Positions 5,774 through 21,575 of a stretch of DNA of 64,000 nt are shown here, piece by piece; position 1 is the first letter of the stretch; every line of letters starts with the position of its first letter. Origin of the DNA: Thermoanaerobaculum sp. (GTDB lineage Bacteria > Acidobacteriota > Thermoanaerobaculia > Multivoradales > UBA5704). A program made the translations under genes and the position numbers. Location of the stretch: the NCBI GenBank assembly GCA_021154885.1, contig JAJKHS010000160.1, positions 1-64,000 on the forward strand, read 5' to 3'. Under the pieces are notes generated by a model. It ran no database searches. It had not been told where the DNA came from and saw only the letters and a list, made by a program, of their open reading frames with translations.

Positions 5774-5804
5774 TTGACAGCCCGCTGTGCTCCTGCGGTA
5801 AGCT
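5774..5804 (+). promoter_or_regulatory. Putative sigma-70 promoter of the aro-his-trp supraoperon
   Basis: TTGACA at 5774-5779 is a perfect -35 box. A weak TAAGCT lies 19 bases on (5799-5804), or GTAAGC with an 18-base spacer. The start would lie near 5811, about 18 bases before the leader ORF. It diverges from the DedA-rhodanese gene, whose start is at 5759. Confidence 0.5.
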
Positions 5805-5828
5805 CCACGACTGATCGGTAACCTGACG

Positions 5829-5909
5829 ATGCTTAACCAAGCCCAACTCCGCTCCGCAATCTCCGCCGCCTGGGCTTGGCGTACGCATCATCATCACGCC
5901 GTGAGCTGA
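5829..5909 (+). CDS. Leader peptide with Trp and His codon runs (his-trp attenuator)
   Basis: A 26-codon ORF, ATG 5829 to TGA 5907-5909. Residues 15-17 are Trp-Ala-Trp (5871-5879) and residues 20-23 are four consecutive His codons (5886-5897: CAT CAT CAT CAC). Trp and His are the end products of the operon that follows, so this is the expected design of a ribosome-mediated attenuator leader, here apparently for two amino acids at once. The C-terminal residues after the His run are Ala-Val-Ser. No strong Shine-Dalgarno is visible before the ATG, which is the weakest point. Single-signal trp or his leaders are well known; the combined one is the observation. Confidence 0.8.
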   Translation: MLNQAQLRSAISAAWAWRTHHHHAVS

Positions 5910-5990
5910 GCCGGGCACGCTGTCCCGGCCGCACGGACCCGGGACGAGAGAGACCGCCTGACGCTTGACGTCAACCTCCTTCCGGGTCCG
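5910..5990 (+). promoter_or_regulatory. Attenuator RNA: alternating segments 1:2, 2:3, 3:4
   Basis: Four short complementary segments follow the leader stop. Segment 1 GCCGGG (5910-5915) pairs with segment 2 CCCGGC (5924-5929). Segment 2, as GTCCCGG (5922-5928), can instead pair with segment 3 CCGGGAC (5939-5945). Segment 3, as CGGACCCGG (5934-5942), pairs over 9 bp with segment 4 CCGGGTCCG (5982-5990), which lies in the loop and inner arms of the terminator hairpin. A ribosome stalled on Trp or His codons leaves 1:2 free to form, releasing 3 to pair with 4. A ribosome reaching the stop codon would cover segment 1, allowing 2:3 and then the terminator. The pairings are seen; the mechanism is inferred. 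Confidence 0.65.
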
Positions 5991-6004
5991 GAAGGAGGTT
6001 TCGT
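5973..6004 (+). terminator. Attenuator terminator hairpin that also sequesters the aroDE ribosome binding site
   Basis: A perfect 11-bp stem AACCTCCTTCC (5973-5983) / GGAAGGAGGTT (5990-6000) with a 6-base loop, followed by the interrupted U tract TCGTTT. The 3' arm contains GGAAGGAGG, the Shine-Dalgarno of aroDE, ending 6 bases before its TTG start at 6005. The hairpin can therefore act by transcription termination, by blocking translation initiation, or both. Confidence 0.75.
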
Positions 6005-7534
6005 TTGGAGACGTCCCCCGCAGATACGACTCGCGCCACGCTGGTCGCGACCGTCACGACGGTGCCCGAGGGAGGGCTCGCGAGCCTCGCCTCCGGCCTC
6101 GGTGGGCTCGGTGGCCTCGACGGTGTCGACTGGCTGGAGGTGCGGGCCGACCTGGTGGGGGACCTCGATCCCGCCGCTCTCCGCTTCTTCCCGGGGAGGC
6201 TCCTCTATACCCTGCGCAGCCGCGCCGAGGGCGGCGCCTTCGAGGGCTCGGCCGAGCGGCGCAAACGGCGGCTGATCGAGGCGGCATCCCGCTACGACCT
6301 GGTGGACCTCGAGGCGGTGCGCGATCTGTCGCCGGAGGTGCTGAAGGCCGTGCCGGCCGAGCGCCGGGTCCTCTCCTGGCACGGTCCGGCCGCCGACCTC
6401 GACGGCCTGAAGGCCACCTTCGAACGCATGGCGGTCGTCCCCGCCCTGCTCTACAAGCTGGTGCCCACGGCCACGCAGCCGGGTGAGGAGGTGCCGGCAT
6501 TGCAGCTCCTGCGGTCGCTGGGCCGCCGCGACGTCATCGCCTTCGCCACCGGCGCGGGCGGCGCTTGGACTCGGTTCGTCGCGCCGCGCCTGGGAGCGCC
6601 GGTGGTCTACGGCGCCCTGGGCGAGGTCCCCGGTGCGCCGGGCCAGCTCTCCATCGAGCGCCTGCGCGCCGATTACGGCCTGCCGGACCTGCCGCCGGCC
6701 GCGGCCCTGTTCGGCATCGTCGGTCACCCCGTCGCCCATTCCCTGTCGCCCCGCATCCACAACACGGCCTATCGCGCTCTGGGGCTCCCGGCCCTGTATC
6801 TACCCTTCGACACCGAAGCCTTCGGCGACTTCTGGCTGGAGGTGGTGGAGAACGGCGCGCTGGAGACCCTGGGCTTTCCCATCCGGGGCCTGTCGGTGAC
6901 CACGCCGTTCAAGGAGGCGGCCCTGGCCGTGGCCGGTGCGGAGAGCCCGCTCGCCGGCCTGATCGGCGCCGCCAACACGCTGGTATGGAACCATGGGGTG
7001 TGGGAGGCCGAGGCGACCGATCCCGACGGCGTCGTCCTCCCCCTCCGCGACCGCGGCATCGCCATCGACGGTCTCGAGGCCGCCGTGGTGGGAGCCGGCG
7101 GCGCGGGACGGTCCGCGGCCGAGGGGCTCAAGAAGGCCGGGGCGCGGGTGACGATCTGCAACCGCGATCTCGAGCGCGGCCGGGCCGCCGCCGAGCGGCT
7201 GAAAATCCCGTTCCTCCCTCTCGCCGAGCTCGATCCCTCTCGTTTCGGTCTGCTGGTCAACGCCACGTCCCTGGGCCGCGGCGTGGGCGATCCCCTGCCC
7301 TTCGACGCCGGCCGGTTGCGGCCCGGCGCGGTGGTGATCGATCTCGTCTATCTGCTCGACCGGCCGACGCGCCTCCTTGCCGAGGCGGCGGCCGGGGGCG
7401 CGGTGGCCGTCGACGGCCGGGAGGTGCTGATCGACCAGGCCCGGGGACAGTTCCGGCTGATGACCGGCCGGGACCTGCCGCTGGACCTCGCCCGCCGGGC
7501 GGCCGGCCTGGAGATCGCGGAGACCATGCCATGA
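6005..7534 (+). CDS. aroDE: Bifunctional 3-dehydroquinate dehydratase / shikimate dehydrogenase
   Basis: Encodes 509 residues combining two consecutive steps of the shikimate pathway. Residues ~15-215 are a type I dehydroquinase with the Schiff-base Lys in LLYKLVPTA and the catalytic His in LSWHGP. Residues ~228-505 are shikimate dehydrogenase with GHPVAHSLSPRIHN (substrate) and GAGGAGRSA (NADP). AroD-AroE fusions are known from plants and some bacteria. The start is TTG at 6005, fixed by the strong SD GGAAGGAGG buried in the attenuator hairpin. It supplies chorismate precursor for the downstream trp genes and overlaps hisZ by 4 bases. Confidence 0.93.
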   Translation: METSPADTTRATLVATVTTVPEGGLASLASGLGGLGGLDGVDWLEVRADLVGDLDPAALRFFPGRLLYTLRSRAEGGAFEGSAERRKRRLIEAASRYDLVDLEAVRDLSPEVLKAVPAERRVLSWHGPAADLDGLKATFERMAVVPALLYKLVPTATQPGEEVPALQLLRSLGRRDVIAFATGAGGAWTRFVAPRLGAPVVYGALGEVPGAPGQLSIERLRADYGLPDLPPAAALFGIVGHPVAHSLSPRIHNTAYRALGLPALYLPFDTEAFGDFWLEVVENGALETLGFPIRGLSVTTPFKEAALAVAGAESPLAGLIGAANTLVWNHGVWEAEATDPDGVVLPLRDRGIAIDGLEAAVVGAGGAGRSAAEGLKKAGARVTICNRDLERGRAAAERLKIPFLPLAELDPSRFGLLVNATSLGRGVGDPLPFDAGRLRPGAVVIDLVYLLDRPTRLLAEAAAGGAVAVDGREVLIDQARGQFRLMTGRDLPLDLARRAAGLEIAETMP

Positions 7535-8496
7535 GAGTCTCCGCCGCCCTGCCCACCGGGGTCGCCGCCCTGCTGTTCGAAAGCGCTCGCCGCCGCCGCG
7601 ACGCGGAGGATCGGTTGGTGGTCCACCTGCGGGAGGCGGGCTACGCGGAGGTGATCCTCCCCATCCTCGACTACGTGGAGCCCTACGACTCACTGCTGAC
7701 GACGGCTTCGCGGGGGGAGCTATACCGCTTCGTGGACCGCGACGGCGAGCTGCTCGCCCTGCGCGCCGACTTCACGCCCATGCTGGCGCGGTTGCTCGCC
7801 CCCCGTCTCGAATCGCTGCCGCTGCCTCTGCGCCTCTACTACCGCGGCGACGTGGTGCGCTATCAGGAGGAGCGGGCGGGCCGGGCGCGGGAGTTCTACC
7901 AGCTCGGCGCCGAGTTGCTGGGCCTGCCCGGCGAGGCGGCGGAGCGGGAGGTGCTGCGGCTCTTCCTGGAGCTGGCGACCGCCGTGGGTGGCGGCTCCCT
8001 CCAGGTGGTGCTCGGCTTCGCCGGCGCCCTCGACCAACTGCTGCTGGCGGCGGACGCCGCCAATCCCGCGGCCCTGGCGGCGGCGGTGGCGCGGCGCGAG
8101 CGCAGCGCGGTCCGCCGCGCCTGCCCTGCCCTGCTGGCGGTGGTGGAGAACGGCGTGCCGGAGCGGCCGGAGGACCTGGGACCGGAAGCCGCCGGCCGGC
8201 TGCGTGGGCTCCTGGCTCTGCGCGATGAGCTCGCCGCGTCCTTTCCCCAGGCGTTGCTGACGATCGACCTTGCCGAGTTCGCCTGCAACAGCCTGGACCC
8301 GCGAATGTCCGAAGGGGCAGCCGAGGGAGAGCGTTCCTACTACGACGGCGTCGTCTTCCACGCCTACGCCGGTCCCGCGGCCCTGCCGGTGGGCGGCGGC
8401 GGGCGCTACGACCGCCTGTTCAAAGCCCTGGGAGCGGAGATACCAGCCGTAGGATTCGCCATCAGTCTGGAGCGGCTGCTGGAGGCGCGGCCGTGA
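7531..8496 (+). CDS. hisZ: ATP phosphoribosyltransferase regulatory subunit
   Basis: A 321-residue histidyl-tRNA-synthetase-like protein: class II aminoacyl-synthetase core with ALRADFTPMLARL (motif 2 region) and GGGGRYDRL near residue 291, but no C-terminal anticodon-binding domain. HisZ pairs with the short form of HisG, which is the next gene, and mediates feedback inhibition by histidine. The ATG overlaps the aroDE stop (ATGA). Confidence 0.92.
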   Translation: MRVSAALPTGVAALLFESARRRRDAEDRLVVHLREAGYAEVILPILDYVEPYDSLLTTASRGELYRFVDRDGELLALRADFTPMLARLLAPRLESLPLPLRLYYRGDVVRYQEERAGRAREFYQLGAELLGLPGEAAEREVLRLFLELATAVGGGSLQVVLGFAGALDQLLLAADAANPAALAAAVARRERSAVRRACPALLAVVENGVPERPEDLGPEAAGRLRGLLALRDELAASFPQALLTIDLAEFACNSLDPRMSEGAAEGERSYYDGVVFHAYAGPAALPVGGGGRYDRLFKALGAEIPAVGFAISLERLLEARP

Positions 8497-9119
8497 TCCG
8501 GCTGGCGCTGCCCAAGGGGCGGAACCTGGAGGCGGCGCTCGCGGCCTTCCGCGCCGCCGGCATTCCGCTCGACGGCGTCGACGCCAACGGCCGCAGCCTC
8601 CTCTGGCGGCTCCCGGACCTGGGGGTAGAGATCCTCTCGCTCAAGGACTGGGACCTCCCCCTCTACGTCGGCCACGGCATCGCCGACTGCGGCATCGTCG
8701 GCAGCGACGTGCTGGAGGAGGTGGACGGCGACCTGCTGGTTCCCGTGCGCCTCCTTGCAGGGCGCTCCCGCCTGTCGCTCATCGGCCTCGACCCGGCCCT
8801 GCCCGCGCCGGGGACGCAGGTGCGCCTGGCCACCAAGTACCCGCAGACGGCGCGGCGCCTGGTGGCCGGCCGGACGTGGGGGGCCGAGATCCTGAAGCTC
8901 TCGGGCTCCATCGAGCTGGCCGCCGTGCTGCGCCTGGCCGAGCTGGCCCTGGACATCGTGCAGACCGGCCGCACCCTGGCCGAGAACCACTTGGTGGAGA
9001 TCGAGACGGTGGCCGAGGTGGCCCCCTGTCTGGTGGTGAACCGCGCCTCGTACCAGCGTCACCGGGCGCTCCTCAACGACTGGATCGGCCGCCTGGAGGC
9101 GGCGGAGGTGGTCTCGTGA
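8493..9119 (+). CDS. hisG: ATP phosphoribosyltransferase, short form
   Basis: Encodes 208 residues, the length of the short HisG that needs HisZ. It catalyses the first step of histidine synthesis, ATP + PRPP to phosphoribosyl-ATP. It starts with IRLALPKGRNLE and has the PRPP-binding segment ALDIVQTGRTL near residue 150. The C-terminal regulatory domain of long HisG is absent, as expected with hisZ next door. The start is GTG overlapping the hisZ stop. Confidence 0.94.
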   Translation: MIRLALPKGRNLEAALAAFRAAGIPLDGVDANGRSLLWRLPDLGVEILSLKDWDLPLYVGHGIADCGIVGSDVLEEVDGDLLVPVRLLAGRSRLSLIGLDPALPAPGTQVRLATKYPQTARRLVAGRTWGAEILKLSGSIELAAVLRLAELALDIVQTGRTLAENHLVEIETVAEVAPCLVVNRASYQRHRALLNDWIGRLEAAEVVS

Positions 9120-10414
9120 GCTCTCTCGACGTCCTCAAGCCCAGCTCCCGCGCCGGCCGCCGCGCGGTCGAGCGCCTCGTCCGCCGCGGCGACTCCGTGC
9201 TCGACGCCAAGACCCTGCGCAAGGCGGAGAAGATCGTCGCCGAGGTCCGCGAGCGCGGCGACCGCGCCCTCCTCGACTACGCCCGCCGGCTCGACGGCGC
9301 CGAAGCGGAATCGGCGGCTGCCCTCGCCCTGATCGCATCGCCGGCGGACTCGGACCCCGCCCTCCTGCCCGCCGGTTTCGCCGAGGCCCTGGAGCGGGCC
9401 ATCGTGGCGGTCGAGCGCTATCACGCGCCCCAGGTGCGCACCGGCTACCGGCTGGAGGAGGAGGGGGTGGAGCTGGAGGAGCGGGTGACCCCCTTGCGCC
9501 GGGTCGGCGTCTACGTCCCGGGCGGCCGGGCGAGCTACCCCTCGACGGCGGTGATGACGGTGGTGCCCGCGCGGGTGGCCGGCGTGCGGGAGATCGCCGT
9601 CGCGACACCGCCCGGCTCGTACCGCGCCAACGCCGCCCTGCGCTTCACCCTCGCCCGCCTGGGCGTCGCCGAGGTCTGGGGCATGGGCGGCGCCCACGCC
9701 GTGGCGGCCTTCGCCTACGGCACGGAGACGATCCGCCGGGTGGACAAGATCGTGGGCCCGGGCAACGCCTGGGTCACGGCGGCGAAGAAGCTGGTGGTGG
9801 GGGACGTGGGAATCGATGGCATCGCCGGTCCCAGCGAGGTGGTGATCGTGGCCGATCCGACCGCCGATCCGGGCGATCTGGCCGCCGACCTGCTGGCCCA
9901 GGCGGAGCATGATCCGCAGGCCGCGGCGGTGCTGATCACGACCGACACCCGGCTGGCCAGGCGCGTCTCGGCCGAGGTCGACCGCCAGCTCGCCGGCCTT
10001 TCAACCGCCGAGACGGCCCGGGCATCGCTGGCGAATTTCGGCGCGGCCTTCGTGGTGGAGGGACTGGAGGAGGCGCTCGATCTGGTCGAGCGGATCGCCC
10101 CCGAGCACCTGCAGCTCGTGGGGCACGAAGCGGAGGTGCTGGCCTTGCACGTCCGCGCCGCCGGGGCCATCTTCCTCGGCAGCTCCACACCCGAGGTGTT
10201 CGGCGACTACGTGGCCGGCCCCAGCCACGTCCTCCCCACCTGCGGCAGCGCCCGCTTCGCCTCGGCCCTCGGGGTGGAGGATTTCCTGCGCCGCAGCCAC
10301 ACCCTGCGCTTCACGGCGGGGGCTGCGAGTCATCGGGCCGCGGCGGCGGCGACGCTGGCGGACGCCGAGGGGCTCCCCGCCCATGCGGCGTCGGCGCGGC
10401 GGAGAGTCCGATGA
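9116..10414 (+). CDS. hisD: Histidinol dehydrogenase
   Basis: Encodes 432 residues with family signatures GVYVPGGRASYPSTAVM near residue 135, the stretch VDKIVGPGNAWVTAAKK near 210, GPSEVVIVAD and IAPEHLQL. It performs the last two oxidations, histidinol to histidine, with NAD and zinc. The start is GTG in the GTGA overlap with hisG. Confidence 0.94.
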   Translation: MSSLDVLKPSSRAGRRAVERLVRRGDSVLDAKTLRKAEKIVAEVRERGDRALLDYARRLDGAEAESAAALALIASPADSDPALLPAGFAEALERAIVAVERYHAPQVRTGYRLEEEGVELEERVTPLRRVGVYVPGGRASYPSTAVMTVVPARVAGVREIAVATPPGSYRANAALRFTLARLGVAEVWGMGGAHAVAAFAYGTETIRRVDKIVGPGNAWVTAAKKLVVGDVGIDGIAGPSEVVIVADPTADPGDLAADLLAQAEHDPQAAAVLITTDTRLARRVSAEVDRQLAGLSTAETARASLANFGAAFVVEGLEEALDLVERIAPEHLQLVGHEAEVLALHVRAAGAIFLGSSTPEVFGDYVAGPSHVLPTCGSARFASALGVEDFLRRSHTLRFTAGAASHRAAAAATLADAEGLPAHAASARRRVR

Positions 10415-12240
10415 AAGACCCGGCGCTCTTCGTCCGGCCCGAGCTGCGGGCCCTGTCGCGGTATCACCTCGACCTGACGCCCAGCCGCCACAAGCTGGAT
10501 CAGAACGAGGTCCCCTGGGACCTGCCGCGGCGCTACAAGCGGGAGATGGCCGCGCGCCTGCTGGCCGCGGACTGGGCCCGCTACCCCGACTTCCACGCCG
10601 ACGAGCTGCGCCGTGACCTCGGCCGCCTGCACGGCCACCCGCCAGAGGGGGTGCTGGTGGGTAACGGCTCGAACGAGCTGCTGTCGGTGACGCTGACGGC
10701 CCTGGTTCCGCCCGGCGGCGAGGTGCTGGGGGCCGAGCCGAGCTTCGGGCTCTATCGCAGCTTCGTGCTCAAGGCCGCGGGTGTCCCCCGGTTCCTTCCT
10801 CCCCGCCTCGATCTGCGCATCCCGATCGATGAGCTCGAGGCCGAGATCGAGCGCGATCCGCGCCGTCCGCTGATCCTCTGCACGCCCAACAACCCGACCG
10901 GCGACGCCCTGGCGCCGGAGCGGGTGGAGCGTCTGCTGGAGCGCCTGGAGGCGCCGCTCCTGCTCGACAACGCCTACGGCGAATTCTGCCGGTTCGATTA
11001 CCGGCCGCTCCTCGCCAGGCATCCCCATCTCGTCCTGTTCCGCACTTTCTCCAAGGCCTGGTCGCTGGCGGGGATGCGCCTCGGCTATCTGCTGGCCGAC
11101 CCGCGGCTGGTGGCGGAGCTGCTCAAAGTGAAGCTCCCCTATAACCTGGGCCATGCCGGAGTGATCTCCGGCCGCGTGGCCCTGGAGGCGGAGAGGGAGG
11201 CCCGCAAGCGGGTGGAGATCCTGATCGCCCGCCGTGCTCAATGGGCGGCCATGCTGGCGGCGGCGGGGCTGGAGGTCTTCCCGTCGGAGGCCAATTTCCT
11301 CCTCGTCCGCGGCGGCTCGCCGGAGAAGGCGAAGGAGATTCGTGAGACCCTGGAGGCGCGCAGTATTCGGGTGCGCGACGTGGGCGGCTACCCGGGGTTG
11401 GCCGGCTGCCTGCGGGTGTCGGTGGGGACGGGCGCGGCTCTGCGGGCGGTGCGGGCGGCGCTCGGGCCCTCACCCCCCCCGCCCAAGACCCTCATCACCC
11501 CGGCCCTCTTCTCCCGCCCCCTCCCACCCCCCTCACCGGGAGAAGAGGGAGAACGGCAAGAGACCTCCAACCGGGTTCCCCTCTCCCGGGGAGGGGGGTG
11601 GGAGGGGGCGGGAGAGGGGACAGGGGTGAGGGCCCTCGGGTGGGGGCGCACCGGCCACGTTGAGCGCACCACCGGTGAGACGCAGATCCGCCTGGAGCTC
11701 CGCTTGGACGGCGGGACGCGGCGGATCGACGTTCCCAACGGCTTCTTCGGCCACATGCTGAACGCGCTGGCCACCCACTCCGGCGTCGGGCTGGACCTGG
11801 AGGCCCGGGGGGATACCCACGTCGACCTCCACCACACCGTCGAGGACGTGGGGATCGCCTGGGGCGAGGCCCTGGCCGCCGCGCTGGGGGAGCGCAAGGG
11901 GATCGTGCGCTTCGCCCACGCCTATGCCCCCTTGGACGAGGCCCTGGCCCGCGCCGTGGTGGACCTCTCCGGCCGTGGCTCGTTCCACTACTCGGCGCCG
12001 CGCGACGTCGCCGCTTCGTGGGTGACGGCGGACTTCCCCCTCACCCTGGTGGCCGACTTCTTCCAGGCCTTCGCGGACCGCGGCCGGCTCACCCTTCATC
12101 TGGAGATCCTCGCCGCCCGCAACGGCCACCACGCCGCCGAGGCCGCCTTCAAGGCGGCGGCGCTGGCGCTGCGCCAAGCCGTGGCTTTGAGAAGGGGACC
12201 AGGAGAGGTGCCGAGCACCAAGGGGACGCTCTCCGCATGA
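10411..12240 (+). CDS. hisC-hisB: Histidinol-phosphate aminotransferase / imidazoleglycerol-phosphate dehydratase fusion
   Basis: Encodes 609 residues in one frame. Residues ~1-352 are HisC, a class I/II PLP aminotransferase with NNPTGD and the PLP lysine in FRTFSKAWSLAGMRLGY. Residues ~353-415 are a Pro/Gly/Arg-rich linker encoded by a palindromic dispersed repeat. Residues ~416-609 are HisB dehydratase only, with the metal motifs HHTVEDVG and GHHAAEAAFKA; the HisB phosphatase domain found in enterobacteria is absent. The two halves are not adjacent steps of the pathway (dehydration, then transamination is next), so the product of HisB feeds HisC. The start is ATG overlapping hisD; the end overlaps hisH. 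Confidence 0.9.
   Translation: MKDPALFVRPELRALSRYHLDLTPSRHKLDQNEVPWDLPRRYKREMAARLLAADWARYPDFHADELRRDLGRLHGHPPEGVLVGNGSNELLSVTLTALVPPGGEVLGAEPSFGLYRSFVLKAAGVPRFLPPRLDLRIPIDELEAEIERDPRRPLILCTPNNPTGDALAPERVERLLERLEAPLLLDNAYGEFCRFDYRPLLARHPHLVLFRTFSKAWSLAGMRLGYLLADPRLVAELLKVKLPYNLGHAGVISGRVALEAEREARKRVEILIARRAQWAAMLAAAGLEVFPSEANFLLVRGGSPEKAKEIRETLEARSIRVRDVGGYPGLAGCLRVSVGTGAALRAVRAALGPSPPPPKTLITPALFSRPLPPPSPGEEGERQETSNRVPLSRGGGWEGAGEGTGVRALGWGRTGHVERTTGETQIRLELRLDGGTRRIDVPNGFFGHMLNALATHSGVGLDLEARGDTHVDLHHTVEDVGIAWGEALAAALGERKGIVRFAHAYAPLDEALARAVVDLSGRGSFHYSAPRDVAASWVTADFPLTLVADFFQAFADRGRLTLHLEILAARNGHHAAEAAFKAAALALRQAVALRRGPGEVPSTKGTLSA
11482..11640 (+). repeat. Palindromic dispersed repeat forming the HisC-HisB linker
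   Basis: C-rich left arm (from 11482) and G-rich right arm (to ~11640) form a long imperfect inverted repeat; for example CGCCCCCTCCCACCCCCCTC on the left is answered by the reverse complement around 11593-11612. Positions 11482-11526 are identical over 45 bases to 27315-27359 outside the operon. The element is in frame and without stop codons here. Confidence 0.85.
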
Positions 12241-12866
12241 AACCCGATGCGCTGATCGTCGACGCCGGAGTCGGCAACCTCGGTAACCTCGTCCGCGCCG
12301 TGGAGCGCGTGGGCGGGCGGGCCGAGATCACGACGGACCCCGAGCGGGTGGCGGAGTCCCGCTGCCTGCTCCTTCCGGGCGTCGGGGCTTTCGGGCCTCC
12401 CCGCGAGGCAGTGCGCGGCGGCGTCGAGCAGGCCCTGCGCGCGGCCCTCTCCCGGGGCGCCTGGCTCCTCGGCATCTGCGTCGGTTTCCAGATCCTCTTC
12501 GAGGAGGGGGAGGAGTTCGGCGTCACCGACGGTCTCGGTCTCCTCCCGGGTCGCGTCACCCGGCTTCCCCACACTGTGCCGGTGCCCCACATCGGCTGGA
12601 ATCGGCTGCACGACGTGGCGGATCACCCCCTCCTCTCCGGCCTCGCCGAGGTGGCCGGCCGCGGGCGCTACGTCTACTTCGTCCACAGCTACGCCCCGGA
12701 GGGCGTGCCGGAGGAGGATCAGATCGCCCGCTGCACCCATGGCCGCGTCTTCCCGGCGGTGGCCGGCCGCGGGCGGGTGATAGGCACCCAGTTCCATCCC
12801 GAGCGGAGCGGCGACGCCGGTCTGCGCCTATTGTCCAACTTTCTGGAGATGGCCCGTTGGAGCTGA
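12237..12866 (+). CDS. hisH: Imidazole glycerol phosphate synthase, glutaminase subunit
   Basis: A 209-residue class I glutamine amidotransferase. The nucleophile Cys is in LLGICVGFQ, and the His/Glu pair is in GTQFHPERS near the C-terminus. It delivers ammonia to HisF, which here is the C-terminal half of the following fusion protein. The ATG is in an ATGA overlap with hisB; the 3' end overlaps the TTG start of hisAF by 10 bases. Confidence 0.92.
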
Positions 12867-14335
12867 TCCCGGCGATCGACCTGCGCCATGGCCGGGCCAT
12901 CCGCCTGCGCCAGGGGGACGACGCCCGAGCCACCGTTTACGGCGACGACCCCGTGGCCGTGCTGGCGGCGTACGTCCGCGCCGGCGTCCCCCGCGTGCAC
13001 GTGGTGGATCTGGACGCCGCTCTGGGCGAGCCCCCCCAGCGAGAGCTGATCACGCGCATGGCAACCGTGGAGACCAAGATCCAACTCGGCGGCGGCCTGC
13101 GGGACCGCGAGGCCGTCGACTGGGCCCTTGCGGCGGGCTGCGATCGGGTGGTGATCGGCTCGCTGGTGGCCCGCAACGTGGAGGCCTTCCGCGCCCTGGC
13201 CTTGGAGAGGCCAGGCCGGCTCGTCCCCGCTCTGGACGTGGAGCGCGGGGAGGTGCGGATCGCCGGCTGGAAGGAGGGGGCTCCTCACACTCTGGGCGAG
13301 ATCTGCGGCAGGCTCATGGGCGCGCCGTGTCCCGCCGTCCTGGTGACCGACGTCGAGCGCGACGGGATGATGACCGGTCCCAACCTCGACCTCGCCCGCC
13401 GCGTCGGCCGGGCGACCGGCATCCCCGCGCTCGTCTCGGGCGGCGTCCACGCCCTGGCCGACCTCGAAGCGGCGCGGACTGTCCCCGAGGTCGGCGGCGT
13501 CATCGTCGGCCGGGCGCTCTACGAGGGCGCCTTCACCGTCGAGGAAGCGCTGGCGGCCTGCGGAATTTCCGGCCTCGCCCGGCGGGTCATCCCCTGTCTC
13601 GACGTGCGCGCCGGCCGGGTGGTCAAGGGCGTGCGGTTCCGCGACCTCGTCGACCAGGGAGACCCGGCCGAGGCGGCCCTGCGCTACGCCGGGCAGGGGG
13701 CGGACGAGATCGTCTTCCTCGACATCACCGCCGCTCCCGAGGAGCGCGACACGGACGTGGAGTGGGTGCGGCGCACGGCCGAGCAGGTTTTCATTCCCCT
13801 CACCGTGGGCGGCGGCGTGCGCCGCGAGGCGGACGCCCGGCGGCTCCTGCGCTCGGGCGCCGACAAGGTGGGGATCAACTCCGCCGCCGTGGAGCGGCCG
13901 GAGCTGGTGAGCGAGCTCGCCCGCCGCTTCGGCAGCCAGTGCGTGGTCCTGTCGGTGGACGCCCGGCGGAGGGATGGTGAAGGCTGGGAGGTGGTGACCC
14001 GCGGCGGCCGCCACCCCACGGGCCGCGACGCTCTGGCCTGGATCCGCGAAGGCGTCGAGCGCGGCGCCGGCGAGGTCCTGCTCACCAGCATCGACCGCGA
14101 CGGCACTCAGGGGGGCTACGACCTCGACCTCCTGGCCGCGGTAACGGAGGCGGTCCCCGTGCCGGTGATCGCCTCGGGCGGTGCGGGCGCGCCGGAGCAC
14201 CTGGTGGCGGCCCTCGGGGCCGGCGCCGCCGCCGTCCTCGCCGCCTCCATCTTCCACCAGGGGACCTGGACTGTGGGCGACGTCAAGCGGGCCATCGCCC
14301 AGGCAGGATTCCCGGTGAGAGAGGAGCAGGGATGA
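12857..14335 (+). CDS. hisA-hisF: HisA-HisF tandem barrel fusion (ProFAR isomerase / IGP synthase cyclase)
   Basis: A 492-residue fusion of two homologous (beta-alpha)8 barrels. Residues ~1-233 are HisA with the catalytic Asp in [10 protein letters not shown] and the second acidic site in [14 protein letters not shown]. Residues ~240-492 are HisF with [15 protein letters not shown] and the general acid in [15 protein letters not shown]. The linker is only a few residues (CGISGLA). The two enzymes catalyse consecutive steps; HisF needs the ammonia from HisH encoded just upstream. The start is TTG at 12857, inside hisH. Separate hisA and hisF genes are the rule in bacteria. Confidence 0.92.
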
Positions 14336-14982
14336 GCGTCGACCCCGCCGCCCTCCGCTACGACGACCATGGCCTGATCCCCGTCGTCGTCCAGGACGTC
14401 AATTCAGGAGCCGTGCTGATGCAGGCCTTCGCCAACCGCGAGGCCGTGGAGCTCACCCTGTCCACCGGTCAGGCTCATTTCTGGAGCCGCTCCCGCCAGG
14501 CCCTGTGGCGCAAGGGCGAAACCTCGGGCAACGTCCTCCGGGTGGTGGAGGTGACGGCGGACTGCGACGCCGACTCACTGCTGGTGCGCGCCCTCCCCGC
14601 CGGCCCCGCCTGCCATCGCGGCACCCGCACCTGCTTCGAGCCCAACCCCGCTCGCCTGGAGCTCGGGTGGCTGGCCGCGGTGCTGGAGTCCCGGCGCGGG
14701 GCAGACCCCGAGACGAGCTACACGGCACGACTGCTGGCCCGCGGCATCGAGCGCATCGCCCAGAAGGTGGGGGAGGAGGGGGTCGAGACCGCCATCGCCG
14801 CGGTAGTGGCCGGGATCGCCGCGGAGAAAGAGGGCGGAGAGCGCCGCAAAGCCTTGATCGGCGAGGCCGCGGACCTTCTTTATCACCTGCTGGTGCTCTT
14901 CGAAGCGAGCGGGATCGATCCGTCCGAAGTGGGGGAGGAGCTTTTACGGCGCCACGGTTTGAGCCGGCCGGTGCACTCATAG
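14332..14982 (+). CDS. hisIE: Phosphoribosyl-AMP cyclohydrolase / phosphoribosyl-ATP pyrophosphatase
   Basis: A 216-residue bifunctional enzyme of the usual kind. Residues ~1-112 are HisI with metal-binding DCDADS and CHRGTRTCF. Residues ~118-216 are the helical HisE pyrophosphatase with [10 protein letters not shown] and [12 protein letters not shown]. It performs steps 2 and 3 of the pathway. ATGA overlap with hisAF; 46 bases separate it from trpE. Confidence 0.94.
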
Positions 14983-15028
14983 GGAGAAGCGCGAACATTT
15001 TTTCTTGTCTTTTGGAGGATTGATTTCA

Positions 15029-16482
<1,454 letters not shown>

Positions 16483-16486
<4 letters not shown>

Positions 16487-17067
16487 TCCTGATGATCGAC
16501 AACTACGATTCCTTCACCTACAACCTCGTCCAGATGCTGACGGCGGCGGGGACGCAGGTGGAGGTCCTGCGCAACGACGCCGAGAGCGCCAGGGCCATGC
16601 TGGCCCGCAAGCCCGCGGGCATCGTCCTGTCCCCCGGCCCCGGCCGGCCCGAGGACGCGGGCGTGTGCCTCGACCTCCTCCGCAGCCGCGCCCCCATCCC
16701 CCTCCTGGGGGTCTGCCTCGGCCACCAGGCTCTCGGCGTCGCCTTCGGCGCCACGGTCGACCGCGCGCCGCGGCTCATGCACGGCAAGACCTCCCCTGTC
16801 CGCCACGGCAATCAGGGCGTCTTCGCCGGCCTGCCCAACCCTTTCCCGGCCACCCGCTATCACAGCCTGGAGGTCAAGGAGGGCACCCTGCCGGAGGAGC
16901 TGGAGCCGCTGGCCTGGGCGGACGACGACACCCTCATGGGCCTGCGTCACCGCGAGCTCCCCTACTGGGGCGTGCAGTTCCACCCCGAGTCGGTGCTCAC
17001 CGGCTCCGGGCCGCGCCTGCTGGCCAATTTTCTCGATCTCTGCCGAGAGGCCGGCAATGGCCATTGA
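16483..17067 (+). CDS. trpG: Anthranilate synthase component II (glutamine amidotransferase)
   Basis: A 194-residue class I glutaminase with MIDNYDSFTYNLVQ at the N-terminus, nucleophile Cys in LLGVCLGHQA and the His/Glu pair in GVQFHPES. It may also serve PabB, as in many bacteria. The start is GTG at 16483 overlapping trpE; ATG at 16492 is an alternative. Confidence 0.93.
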
Positions 17068-18073
17068 CGCCCGCACGGCGCTGGTGCGCGTCACGGGCGG
17101 CGACCACCTGACGCGGGAGGAGACCGAGGAGCTCTTCGGCCAGCTCATGGACGGACAGGTCAGCGAAACCCTGAAGGCGGCGCTGCTCGTCGCCCTGCGC
17201 ATGAAGGGGGAGGCGGTGGCGGAGATCTCCGGCGCCGCCGCGGCCATGCGCCGGCGGTCCCTCCCCATCCCCCACCAGCGTCAGGGGCTGGTGGACACCT
17301 GTGGCACGGGCGGCGACGGCCGCGGTACCTTCAACATCTCGACCGCCGCGGCCCTGGTGGCGGCGGCGGCCGGCGTGCCGGTGGCCAAGCATGGCAACCG
17401 CTCGGTCTCCAGCCGCTCCGGCAGCGCCGACGTGCTGGCCGCCCTGGGGGTGAAGATCGAGATCGACCCCGACACCGCCGGCCGCACCCTGGACGCGGTC
17501 GGCATCACCTTCCTTTTCGCGCCGCTCCTCCACCCCGCCATGCGGGAGGTGATGCCGGTGCGCCGCGAGCTGGGGATGCGCACCATCTTCAACGTCCTGG
17601 GGCCGCTGACCAACCCGGCCGGCGCCCGTCGCCAGCTCATGGGCGTCTACATGGAGAGCCTGGTGGAGCCCATCGGCCACGTGCTGCGCGACCTCGGGGC
17701 CGAGCACGCCCTGGTGGTGCACGGCGACGGTCTGGACGAGATCACCACCACAGGGCGCACCCACGTCGCCGAGGTGAAGGACGGCGAGGTGCGGATCTAC
17801 GACCTCGAGCCCGAGCGCTTCGGCCTGCGCCGGGCGCGTCTCGAAGAGCTGGCCGGCGGCACGCCGGAGGACAACGCCGCCGCCGTGCGCCGCGTCTTCT
17901 CCGGCGAAGACGGCGGCGCCCTCTTCGACGTCACCGCCCTCAACGCCGGCGCCGCCCTCTACGTGAGCGGGATCGCCGCCACCCTCGAAGAAGGGGTCGA
18001 GCGCGCCCGCGTGGCCCTGGCGTCTGGAGCTGCGGCCGAAAAGCTCGAAGCCTTGAGGAGCTTCCCGGGATGA
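17057..18073 (+). CDS. trpD: Anthranilate phosphoribosyltransferase
   Basis: Encodes 338 residues with the PRPP-binding glycine-rich loop DTCGTGGDGRGTFNIST near residue 79, KHGNRSVSSRSGSADVLAALG near 112, and RTIFNVLGPLTNPA. It attaches phosphoribose from PRPP to anthranilate. It overlaps trpG by 11 bases. PRPP is also the substrate of HisG, so both branches of this operon draw on it. Confidence 0.94.
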   Translation: MAIDARTALVRVTGGDHLTREETEELFGQLMDGQVSETLKAALLVALRMKGEAVAEISGAAAAMRRRSLPIPHQRQGLVDTCGTGGDGRGTFNISTAAALVAAAAGVPVAKHGNRSVSSRSGSADVLAALGVKIEIDPDTAGRTLDAVGITFLFAPLLHPAMREVMPVRRELGMRTIFNVLGPLTNPAGARRQLMGVYMESLVEPIGHVLRDLGAEHALVVHGDGLDEITTTGRTHVAEVKDGEVRIYDLEPERFGLRRARLEELAGGTPEDNAAAVRRVFSGEDGGALFDVTALNAGAALYVSGIAATLEEGVERARVALASGAAAEKLEALRSFPG

Positions 18074-18873
18074 CCCCTCCAGACATCCTGTTGCGGATCA
18101 CCGACCGGCGGCGCGAGCGCATCGCCGAGACGGGCGGTGCTGACGCTGCCAACTGGGCCGAGGGCGCCCCCCGCGCACCGGCCGACAACGCCTTCCTGGC
18201 CGCCCTGCGAAAGAGGCGGCCATCGCAGTCACCCCCGGCGATCATCGCCGAGGTGAAGATGGGCTCGCCCCGCCTCGGCTCCCTGCATGGCCGGGTGGAC
18301 CCCGTCGCCCAGGCCCGGACCTACGCCGCCCATGGCGCCGCGGCCCTCTCCGTGGTGGTGGAGCCCGACTTCTTTCATGGCGGCTACGAGCTGCTGGCCG
18401 CCTGCCGCGCAGCGTCGGGCCTGCCGGCCATCGCCAAGGACTTCATCGTCGATCCCGTGCAGCTCCTCTGGGCGCGCGACGCGGGAGCGGACGCCATCCT
18501 GCTCATCGCCGCCCTCTACGAGCCGGCGGAGATGGCACGCTACGCCCGCCTCGCCCGCGGCCTCGGGCTCGTCCCCCTGGTCGAGACCCACGACGCGGCC
18601 GACGTCGCCCGGCTGGGCGGCGAGCCGTGGGAGATCGTGGGCATCAACAACCGCAATCTGCGGACGTTCGACGTCGACCTGCAGAATTCCATCGCGCTCC
18701 TGGCCGGCCTCCCCGCGGAGGCGGTGAAGGTCGCGGAGAGCGGTATCCGCGACGCGCTCGACGTGCTCCTCCTGCGCGACAGCGGCTTCGACGCCTTCCT
18801 CATCGGCGAGACGCTGCTCCTGGCGCCCGATCCCGCCGCGAAGCTCCGCGAGCTCCTGGGGCCGGAGGGTTGA
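18070..18873 (+). CDS. trpC: Indole-3-glycerol phosphate synthase
   Basis: A 267-residue (beta-alpha)8 enzyme with IIAEVKMGSPRLG (the catalytic Lys region), KDFIVDPVQL, and IVGINNRNLRTFDVD. It decarboxylates and closes CdRP to indole-glycerol phosphate. The substrate motif reads KMGSP rather than the more usual KKASP, but the Lys is kept. It is not fused to TrpF; the stop overlaps the trpF ATG (TGATG). Confidence 0.93.
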   Translation: MTPPDILLRITDRRRERIAETGGADAANWAEGAPRAPADNAFLAALRKRRPSQSPPAIIAEVKMGSPRLGSLHGRVDPVAQARTYAAHGAAALSVVVEPDFFHGGYELLAACRAASGLPAIAKDFIVDPVQLLWARDAGADAILLIAALYEPAEMARYARLARGLGLVPLVETHDAADVARLGGEPWEIVGINNRNLRTFDVDLQNSIALLAGLPAEAVKVAESGIRDALDVLLLRDSGFDAFLIGETLLLAPDPAAKLRELLGPEG

Positions 18874-19514
18874 TGCCCGTCAAGGTCAAAATCTGCGGCA
18901 TCACCTCTGCCGCCGACGCGCTGGCGGCGGTGGAATGGGGCGCCGACTACCTGGGGTTAAACTTCTACCGGGCCAGCCCGAGGTACGTGGACCCGGGACG
19001 GGCGAGCGAGATCGCCGAGGCGGTGCGCGGTCGCTCCCGGAGGGTGCCGCTGGTGGGGGTGTTCGTCAATTCCCCCCGCGCCGAGGTGGAGTCGATCGCC
19101 GGGCGCGTGGGGCTCGACCTTCTCCAGTTCCATGGCGACGAGGAGCCGGGCTTCGTGGCCCCCTTCGCCGGACGGGCGATCAAGGCCTTCCGCACCGGCG
19201 GGCTGCCGGGTCCGGACGAGCTGGCGGCCTGGGAAGCGGCCTGGGGGATCCTGATCGACGCCCCCCACGCGACGCTCTACGGCGGCACGGGCGCGGCCTG
19301 GGATTACGGCACGGTCGCGTCAGGCTTTGACCGGCGGCTGTTCCTCGCCGGCGGCCTGGGTCCCGGCAACGCGCGCCAGGCGGTCGAGCGGGTGCGGCCG
19401 TACGCCATCGACGTCTGCTCGCGGGTGGAGTCCCGCCCCGGGATCAAGGATCGCGAGCTGCTGCGACGGCTCTTTCAGGAGGTGAGGCATGGCGAGACCC
19501 AAACCCCTCCCTGA
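18873..19514 (+). CDS. trpF: Phosphoribosylanthranilate isomerase
   Basis: Encodes 213 residues with [14 protein letters not shown] (catalytic Cys), LLQFHGDE and the phosphate loops GGTGAAWDY and [10 protein letters not shown]. Its presence means the HisA part of HisAF need not be a PriA-type dual isomerase. It overlaps trpB by 26 bases, giving an alternative C-terminal tail. Confidence 0.92.
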
Positions 19515-20757
19515 CCCGGAGGGTTACTTCGGCCCCTATGGCGGCCGCTTCGTCCCCGAGACGCTCATGGCGCCCCTGGCCGAGCTGACGCGCTTCTACG
19601 ACAAGGCCCATCGCTCCCGCGCCTTCAAGCGCGAGCTGACGGCCCTGCTCAACGACTTCGCCGGCCGCCCGACGCCGCTCTACTTCGCCGAGCGGCTGTC
19701 GGAGGAGCTGGGCGGCGCCCGCATCTTCCTCAAGCGTGAGGACCTGCTGCACACCGGCGCCCACAAGATCAACAACGCCCTCGGCCAGTGCCTGCTCACC
19801 AAGCTGATGGAGAAGGAGCGGGTGATCGCCGAGACCGGCGCCGGCCAGCACGGCGTCGCCACCGCCACCGCCGCTGCCGCCCTCGGCCTCACCTGCACCG
19901 TCTACATGGGCAGCGAGGACATGCGCCGCCAGCGCCTGAACGTCGACCGCATGCGCCTGCTGGGCGCCGAGGTGGTGCCGGTCGACGCCGGAAGCTGCAC
20001 GCTCAAGGACGCCATCAACGAGGCGATGCGCGACTGGGTGACCAACGTCCACACCACCCACTACGTGCTCGGCTCGGTGCTGGGTCCGGACCCGTTCCCC
20101 CGCATGGTGCGCGACTTTCACCGCGTCATCGGCGACGAGGCGCGCCTCCAGCTCAAGCGGCAGGCGGGCACCGAGGCGCCCGACCTGGCGGTCGCCTGCG
20201 TCGGCGGCGGCAGCAACTCGATCGGCCTCTTCACCGCCTTCCTCGCCGACCTGCGGGTGCGGATGATCGGCGTCGAGGCCGGCGGCCGGGGGCCGGCCCG
20301 TGGCGAGCACGCGGCGCGCTTCGGCGGCGGCGCCCTGGGCGTCCTCCACGGCACCCGCACCTTCGTGCTGCAGGACGAGGAGGGGCAGATCGCCACCACT
20401 CATTCCGTCTCCGCCGGCCTGGACTACCCGGCCATCGGCCCGGAGCACGTCTGGCTCCACGATGCCGGGCGGGTGCAGTACGGCTCGGCCACCGACGCCG
20501 AGGCCATCGCCGCCTTCCACCTCCTGGCCCGGACGGAGGGGATCCTCCCCGCCCTGGAGTCCGCCCATGCCATCGCCGAGGTGGTCAAGCGGGCGCCGCG
20601 GCTGTCGCGCCGGCGGATCATCCTGGTCAACCTCTCGGGGCGCGGCGACAAGGACGTCGAGTCGGTCCTCGCCTGGGACCGCGAGCACGCGGGCGACGAT
20701 GGCAACCATGGGACGGTGGAGTCTTTCGCGGCCGCGGCCGCCCGGAGGGGACGATGA
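19489..20757 (+). CDS. trpB: Tryptophan synthase beta chain
   Basis: A 422-residue PLP enzyme with [13 protein letters not shown] at the N-terminus, the PLP lysine in HTGAHKINN near residue 92, the phosphate-binding [12 protein letters not shown], and GRGDKD near the end. It condenses indole with serine; forms the alpha2-beta2 complex with TrpA. It is a TrpB1-type sequence with strong matches throughout. Confidence 0.95.
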
Positions 20758-21575
20758 GCGCCATCGACGAGGTCTTCCAGAGCTGCGCCCGCGAGGGCCG
20801 GGCGGCCTTCATCCCATTCATCATGGCGGGCGATCCCGACCTCGGGGCCACCGCCACCCACCTCGAGGCGCTGGCCGCCGGCGGCGCGGATATCATCGAG
20901 CTGGGCGTGCCGTTCTCCGACCCCATCGCCGACGGGCCGGTGAACCAGCGCGCCGCCGTCCGCGCCCTGGCCGCCGGCACCAAGCTCTCGGCCATCCTGC
21001 AGCTCGTGGCCCGGCACCGCGACAAGCTGGGCATCCCCATCGTCCTCTTCACCTACTTCAACCCCATCCACGCCCGCGGCGTCGAGCGCTTCGCCGAGCA
21101 GGCGGCGGCTTCGGGCGTCGACGGCGTGCTCTGCGTCGACCTGCCGCCGGAGGAGGGGGAGCGGGAGCTCATCCCCGCGATGCGGGAGCAGGGGGTGGAC
21201 ACCATCTTCCTGCTCGCTCCCACCAGCACCCGCGACCGGGTCAACAAGGTGGCCGCGTGCTCCTCGGGCTTCGTCTACTACGTCTCGCGCACCGGCGTCA
21301 CGGGCGAGCGCGCGGCGCTGCCGCCGGACCTGGTGCGCGACGTCAAGAAGCTCCGCAAGCGGCTCGATCAGCCCCTGGCCGTGGGCTTCGGCCTCTCGAC
21401 CCCGGAGCAGGTGGAGGCGGTGGGGGAGATCGCCGACGGCGTGGTGGTGGGCAGCGCCCTGGTGCGGCTCATCGAGGAGAAGGGGAGCGACCCGGAGCTG
21501 CCGGCCCTCCTCGAAGACCGGGTGCGCGAGCTGGCGGCGCCGCTGCGGCCCCGCCCCGAGAGGCGGCGGGCATGA
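20754..21575 (+). CDS. trpA: Tryptophan synthase alpha chain
   Basis: Encodes 273 residues with [11 protein letters not shown], the catalytic Glu in [16 protein letters not shown], the catalytic Asp in [12 protein letters not shown] and [10 protein letters not shown]. It cleaves indole-glycerol phosphate to indole, which channels to TrpB. ATGA overlaps at both ends. Confidence 0.94.

Follow-up and report, generated by a model that had tools for sequence, protein, structure and literature searches.

A putative ribosome-mediated attenuator with tryptophan and histidine codons in one leader peptide ahead of an aro-his-trp operon of Thermoanaerobaculia

Results

A single leader precedes the joint operon

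We analyzed a stretch of 64,000 nucleotides (nt) from Thermoanaerobaculum sp. (positions 1 to 64,000 of contig JAJKHS010000160.1, assembly GCA_021154885.1; hereafter the window), in which the operon aroDE-hisZGD-hisCB-hisH-hisAF-hisIE-trpEGDCFBA (6005-21575) stands behind a short leader open reading frame (ORF). This leader and the RNA that follows it very likely form a ribosome-mediated attenuator, in which one leader peptide would sense both tryptophan (Trp) and histidine (His) and control the joint aro-his-trp operon. Comparative tests of the sequences strongly support such a joint attenuator; they bear on the leader, its codons, the RNA pairings, their covariation and the tracking of operon content by codon content.

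The leader ORF has 26 codons, from an ATG to the TGA stop at 5907-5909, and its peptide reads MLNQAQLRSAISAAWAWRTHHHHAVS*. Two Trp codons (5871-5873 and 5877-5879, forming Trp-Ala-Trp at 5871-5879) are followed by four His codons (5886-5897). An earlier note on this DNA had described this same leader, and family searches of the genes confirmed its further claim that the operon behind it makes these two amino acids. Among the 635 window ORFs of 8-60 codons (both strands), the leader alone presents at least two Trp and HHHH in its last 16 residues. Random 16-codon tails reached at least two Trp and at least three His in 74 of 400,000 cases.

Leader codons follow the gene content of the operon

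The comparison covered relatives of the class Thermoanaerobaculia (Acidobacteriota), with aroDE detected in 87 of 99. We read the regions upstream of aroDE, as well as those of hisZ or trpE where these are separate from aroDE. Operon content was assigned by tblastn of the window proteins against the fetched stretches, and the codon content of each leader was scored over its last 16 residues. A related-locus search of genome contigs returned five loci only, two of them distant.

All 27 joint his+trp operons, which represent 18 genera, present a leader with Trp and at least two His codons: for instance, WWHGVHHHGDF (G017), WWGFVHHHVE (G004), SWWAHGHGKG (genus g5), RHWHVHHS (G074), SWHWHWHHG (G089), and GHWYWFHTPERR (G090; labels of this type are our own). 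None of these 27 keeps the joint operon with the leader or one codon run dropped, which the earlier note had named as one case against its proposal. Dual leaders were found in three of the 14 single-pathway operons (p=1.2e-7 against the joint operons; Fisher test; p=2.8e-6 when joint operons are counted once per genus, which removes kinship only partly). The order of the codons is variable: it is WHWHWHH in G089 and reversed in G093 (HAHRHSTWAW, HAHRHSTWAWPERR).

The leader also changes when genes leave the operon. Where trpE lies elsewhere, including in the window's own family (G003), the leader presents His without Trp codons: VVVHHHPVI (G003), DLVHHHKMT (G007), RGVHHHHGMS (G022), and GGMHHRHGP (G008). 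No separate Trp leader was seen upstream of the detached trp genes of these four. Conversely, Trp without His codons was found in five leaders of aro-trp operons that have no his genes, PVWWCVRSRS (G031), SNWRWREATR (G086), CWYWYWSDTR (G098), SFSWWRLEKRR (G092), and LWWWPSSE (G076). In G094, two separate leaders were found, TWHHHHHHVM before hisZ and NWWWSRRS before trp. Finally, aroDE has no leader in G029, G033, and G044, in which the dual leader precedes hisZ, and G015 likewise carries aroDE elsewhere with the dual leader still ahead of his-trp. This indicates that the leader travels with his-trp and not with aroDE.

These patterns bear on the alternative that only one codon set is read, the other being a relic left over when the operons fused. 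Codons can linger, since His codons are kept in some trp-only leaders (G034, G024t). However, both sets are present in every joint operon despite differing peptides and codon order, and codon sets are lost in most operons without the corresponding pathway: Trp codons are gone from four of the five his-only leaders, and seven of nine leaders of operons without his genes have at most one His codon. We therefore consider the relic explanation very unlikely for the joint operons.

No hisD match was found in the genomes of G005, G013, G020, G024, G026, G031, G034, G035, G037, G042, G046, and others, nor in any family f3 genome searched. The trp genes are kept, which suggests that histidine synthesis was lost. 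The leaders of G034, G037, and G024 still keep one or two His codons, and these are perhaps relics. A hairpin that hides the Shine-Dalgarno sequence (TTTCCTTCCG...CGGAAGGAG) remains in the region before aroDE of G026 (L025), where no leader ORF is evident; it may be an attenuator in decay.

Five RNA segments with alternative pairings

The RNA behind the leader contains five segments that can pair in mutually exclusive ways (Table 1). The earlier note had proposed the pairings 1:2, 2:3, and 3:4 as well as a hairpin at 5973-6000, and all of them are exact in the sequence (1:2, GCCGGG/CCCGGC; 2:3, GTCCCGG/CCGGGAC; 3:4 core, CGGACCCGG/CCGGGTCCG). Its extent for 3:4 (5934-5942/5982-5990) proved too short, however, as this pairing, with one mismatch, spans 5934-5948/5976-5990. 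The sequence of segment 3 (GGACCCGGGACGAG) is similar to that of the Shine-Dalgarno strand (CCGGAAGGAGG), and both compete for the anti-Shine-Dalgarno arm. The complete anatomy (1:2, 2:3, 3:4, and 4:5) was recovered in all 36 loci examined, with segment 1 starting 1-4 nt past the leader stop in every one of them.

The earlier note had suggested a check for compensatory changes in the upstream regions of relatives; such changes are present both in the end hairpin and in 3:4. In an alignment of 27 sequences, changes on both sides were observed in 8 of the 11 pairs of helix 4:5 and in 7 of the 13 pairs of 3:4, and the covariation scores of these two pairings were reached by none of 500 shuffles. 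The native 3:4 partner pairs better on average than partners swapped from other families (23 representatives; z=-6.2, p<5e-5); since related sequences inflate such tests, we take these results as support and not as probabilities. Sliding the partners out of register lowered both the share of paired cells and the covariation score.

The idea that a chance ORF merely overlies an unrelated RNA structure is consistent with the ordinary stability of the window fold, taken as a whole, relative to shuffled sequences (z -1.2 and -1.9). It is extremely improbable given the covariation and the joint conservation of the ORF, its codons, the segment positions, and the promoter.

A model of the switch and the points against it

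From these pairings, we infer a stalling logic, a kinetic choice between helices, a division of the output between transcription and translation, and a response to the two amino acids. With ample Trp and His, the ribosome would reach the leader stop and cover segment 1, so that segment 2 captures segment 3 and segment 4 is free to close on segment 5. Once closed, the 4:5 hairpin would hide the first gene's Shine-Dalgarno sequence; together with the T-rich stretch that follows, it could also end transcription (off state). A shortage of either Trp-tRNA or His-tRNA would make the ribosome stall earlier, with segment 1 left free to form 1:2; segment 3 would then capture segment 4 ahead of the synthesis of segment 5, allowing expression of the operon (on state). 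The net logic would be an OR gate responding to the shortage of either amino acid. The model also predicts that the operon is on when the leader is not translated.

Several observations weigh against this attenuator. Full-length folds favor hairpin 4:5 in most loci whether segment 1 is covered or not. Equilibrium thus offers no on state in most loci, and the choice must be kinetic, made during RNA synthesis. In truncated transcripts with segment 1 free, 3:4 is favored in 25 of 36 loci and disfavored in 5, and the difference is small for the window locus. The permutation and shuffle tests are not fully corrected for kinship. Three single-pathway leaders retain both kinds of codons (G094h, with one Trp, G034, and G024t). 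Finally, the window leader has no clear Shine-Dalgarno sequence. The interpretation of the earlier note is supported overall: the codons follow the genes, and 3:4 and 4:5 covary. In the folding of the leader RNA, which the note had named as a check, most truncated transcripts behave as expected and the full-length equilibrium does not.

In four relatives (G010, G025, G034, and G030; attenuators L177, L167, L168, and L174), the leader ATG follows the -10 element at a short distance and has no Shine-Dalgarno sequence. Translation there may start on leaderless RNA.

Output at the end hairpin

The Shine-Dalgarno sequence of aroDE (AGGAGG, 5993-5998) lies 6 nt ahead of the TTG start at 6005, inside the 3' arm of the end hairpin, and the first ORF of nearly all loci has its Shine-Dalgarno sequence within the hairpin. 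The off state therefore probably blocks translation, either besides transcription or instead of it. The eight hisZ-first operons that we read by eye (G007, G008, G015, G022, G028, G029, G033, and G044) all contain an ORF of 5-54 codons just past the hairpin (L150, L152, L153, L155, L156, L093, L095, and L104; e.g., LELTP and MRRNDYQPLARGRRR), whose stop overlaps the hisZ start as ATGA or GTGA. The Shine-Dalgarno sequence of this short ORF lies in the hairpin arm, 6-9 nt ahead, in six of the eight operons; for G029 and G033, the scan either showed none or placed it very close. The short ORF is likely a translational relay, judging from its position and overlap, and its arm-borne Shine-Dalgarno sequence suggests that the hidden site is a real translation entry.

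The hairpin is also followed by T-rich sequence. Past the Shine-Dalgarno arm, the next 8 nt average 62% T, with at least four T in 82% of 50 attenuator loci, relative to 21% T and 6.7% of sites with at least four T of eight at 449 ordinary Shine-Dalgarno sites, taken from the window and locus sequences (845 kb in all). In some families (G086 and G092), the arm ends in GGGGG-TTTTT. These features, and a kinetic competition that would suit a terminator, speak for a classical and purely transcriptional attenuator in which the hairpin acts as an intrinsic terminator only and the overlap with the Shine-Dalgarno sequence is incidental. We find this explanation rather unlikely. Indeed, genus g5 (TCTTCCCG), G029, G033, G044, G007, and G008 have a weak U tract or none, although the Shine-Dalgarno sequence stays in the arm, and hisZ-first operons retain their short ORF past the hairpin. 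Moreover, a consensus terminator scan scored no terminator at the window hairpin, where the T run is interrupted (TTTCGTTT).

The opposite alternative is a purely translational attenuator, which hides the Shine-Dalgarno sequence alone, the downstream genes following by translational coupling or polarity and the T-rich stretch being incidental. The almost universal position of the Shine-Dalgarno sequence, the short coupling ORF ahead of hisZ, and the overlapping gene ends across much of the operon all agree with it, but not the strong T enrichment past the hairpin in most loci, and we judge this alternative unlikely. With the Shine-Dalgarno sequence in the arm and the T-rich stretch behind it, we think that a single hairpin acts on transcription and on translation, to degrees that vary among lineages. 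The T-rich stretch seen in most loci would suit the terminator of the earlier note; termination is probably not the sole output and, in some lineages, probably not the main one either.

Promoter and other features of the window

A TTGACA hexamer was found upstream of the leader, about 17 nt ahead of a -10-like hexamer, in almost all relatives with enough sequence. The consensus promoter scan scored no promoter in the window, and the conserved TTGACA emerged through comparison.

Table 1. Features of the attenuator and of the operon, in window coordinates
Feature	Position	Strand	Basis
Promoter, TTGACA (5774-5779), N17, GGTAAG (5797-5802)	5774..5802	+	sequence; recurrence in relatives
Leader ORF with Trp-Ala-Trp and four His codons	5829..5909	+	sequence; kept across relatives
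Segment 1 (GCCGGG), adjoining the leader stop; lies under a ribosome that has reached the stop	5910..5915	+	sequence
Segment 2 (GTCCCGGC); partners segment 1 (via 5924-5929) or segment 3 (via 5922-5928)	5922..5929	+	sequence, comparison
Segment 3 (CGGACCCGGGACGAG), mimic of the Shine-Dalgarno strand; partners segment 2 or segment 4 (5976-5990)	5934..5948	+	covariation
Segment 4, anti-Shine-Dalgarno arm and loop of the end hairpin	5973..5990	+	folding, comparison, covariation
Segment 5, 3' arm of the end hairpin; contains the aroDE Shine-Dalgarno sequence	5989..6000	+	sequence, covariation
T-rich stretch (interrupted U tract) after the Shine-Dalgarno sequence, reaching into the start codon	5999..6006	+	T-content count
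aroDE, fused 3-dehydroquinate dehydratase / shikimate dehydrogenase, TTG start	6005..7534	+	family search
his genes: hisZ, hisG, hisD, hisCB (fused), hisH, hisAF (fused), hisIE	7534..14982	+	family searches
trp genes: trpE, trpG, trpD, trpC, trpF, trpB, trpA	15005..21575	+	family searches

Gene ends overlap through much of the operon, which contains several gene fusions: HisC-HisB at 10411-12240, HisA-HisF at 12857-14335 (two paralogous barrels in one chain), AroD-AroE, and HisI-HisE. On the minus strand, positions 980-2497 encode a flavin adenine dinucleotide-dependent protein matching Trp_halogenase (Pfam PF04820, E 1.3e-13). The genome of the window is 8.2 Mb long and the window presents a GC (guanine plus cytosine) content of 70%.

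Distribution of the putative attenuator in the class

A covariance model of the element scored 68 bits at the window element in the window genome; the next hit (30.5 bits) was on the opposite strand at the same place. One match per genome was reported in 56 of 149 genomes of the class. The model also matched L200 (~300-800), which by eye lies ahead of a chorismate mutase-like gene and whose leader (VQHVFAFSFEYYRFS) is rich in Phe and Tyr codons (FAFSFEYYRF). The attenuator family thus seems to serve other aromatic operons as well. Tyr and Phe codons are likewise found in the leaders GYRTYGHWYWFHTPERR, before aro-his-trp genes, and CWYWYWSDTR, before aro-trp genes (L213, L214, and L208).

We tentatively propose, as a possibility somewhat short of even, that a five-segment attenuator family extends across the class. 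In this family, a Shine-Dalgarno mimic would compete for the anti-Shine-Dalgarno arm, one hairpin would govern both transcription and translation, and leader codons would change along with gains and losses of genes in the operon. Three or four amino acids may be sensed simultaneously by some members, with GYRTYGHWYWFH ahead of aro-his-trp, WYWYW ahead of aro-trp, and FAFSFEYYRF ahead of the chorismate mutase-like gene.

Discussion

These results would extend attenuation to Acidobacteriota, a phylum for which our literature searches found no report of it, and a single leader peptide apparently reads two separate pathways. The fusions and splits of these operons form a natural series in which leader codons follow operon gene content. 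Both the rewiring of a leader peptide and the sharing of one hairpin between transcription and translation become directly testable in this system.

Comparison with known systems

The enterobacterial trp and his attenuators (trpL and hisL; Rfam Trp_leader and His_leader) share with this element a short leader ORF with runs of regulatory codons, mutually exclusive RNA pairings, and a hairpin ahead of the first structural gene. Unlike these systems, the element described here presents both codon sets in one leader, its end hairpin contains the Shine-Dalgarno sequence, and its segment logic is inverted, a free segment 1 corresponding to the on state. When the leader is untranslated, the trp operon of E. 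coli behaves in the opposite way to the on state of our model. An Rfam search of the window with E up to 5 returned no Trp_leader, His_leader, or T-box match, nor any other family of this kind.

The erm and cat leaders are cases of translational attenuation by Shine-Dalgarno sequestration. As in these leaders and in the translational T-boxes of actinobacterial ileS (PMC1262725), the hairpin hides the Shine-Dalgarno sequence of the first gene and an anti-sequestor competes for it; the difference is that the switch described here is tied to amino acid codons of a leader ORF and that a T-rich stretch follows in most loci. The trp attenuators of Corynebacterium and Streptomyces also belong to high-GC hosts and have UGG-rich leaders ahead of trp operons, and they contain Trp codons only and poly-U terminators; the same actinobacterial study found no conserved structures before his operons (PMC1262725). 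A combined Trp+His leader was not found in the literature that we could search, most subscription papers and preprints being outside the reach of the search.

Multivalent leaders are precedents in codon content: the thr leader contains Thr and Ile codons and the ilvGMEDA leader Ile, Val, and Leu codons. The Trp and His pathways share the use of phosphoribosyl pyrophosphate. As in the thr and ilv leaders, one leader here carries codons for several amino acids (PMC1183508, PMC11857589); the ilvBNC leader of C. glutamicum is likewise multivalent for Ile, Val, and Leu (PMC11857589). If a multivalent leader is defined by codons for at least two end products of its operon, all 27 joint operons have one. 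The amino acids of the thr and ilv leaders share a single branched pathway, whereas Trp and His are made by separate pathways that operon fusion has brought together.
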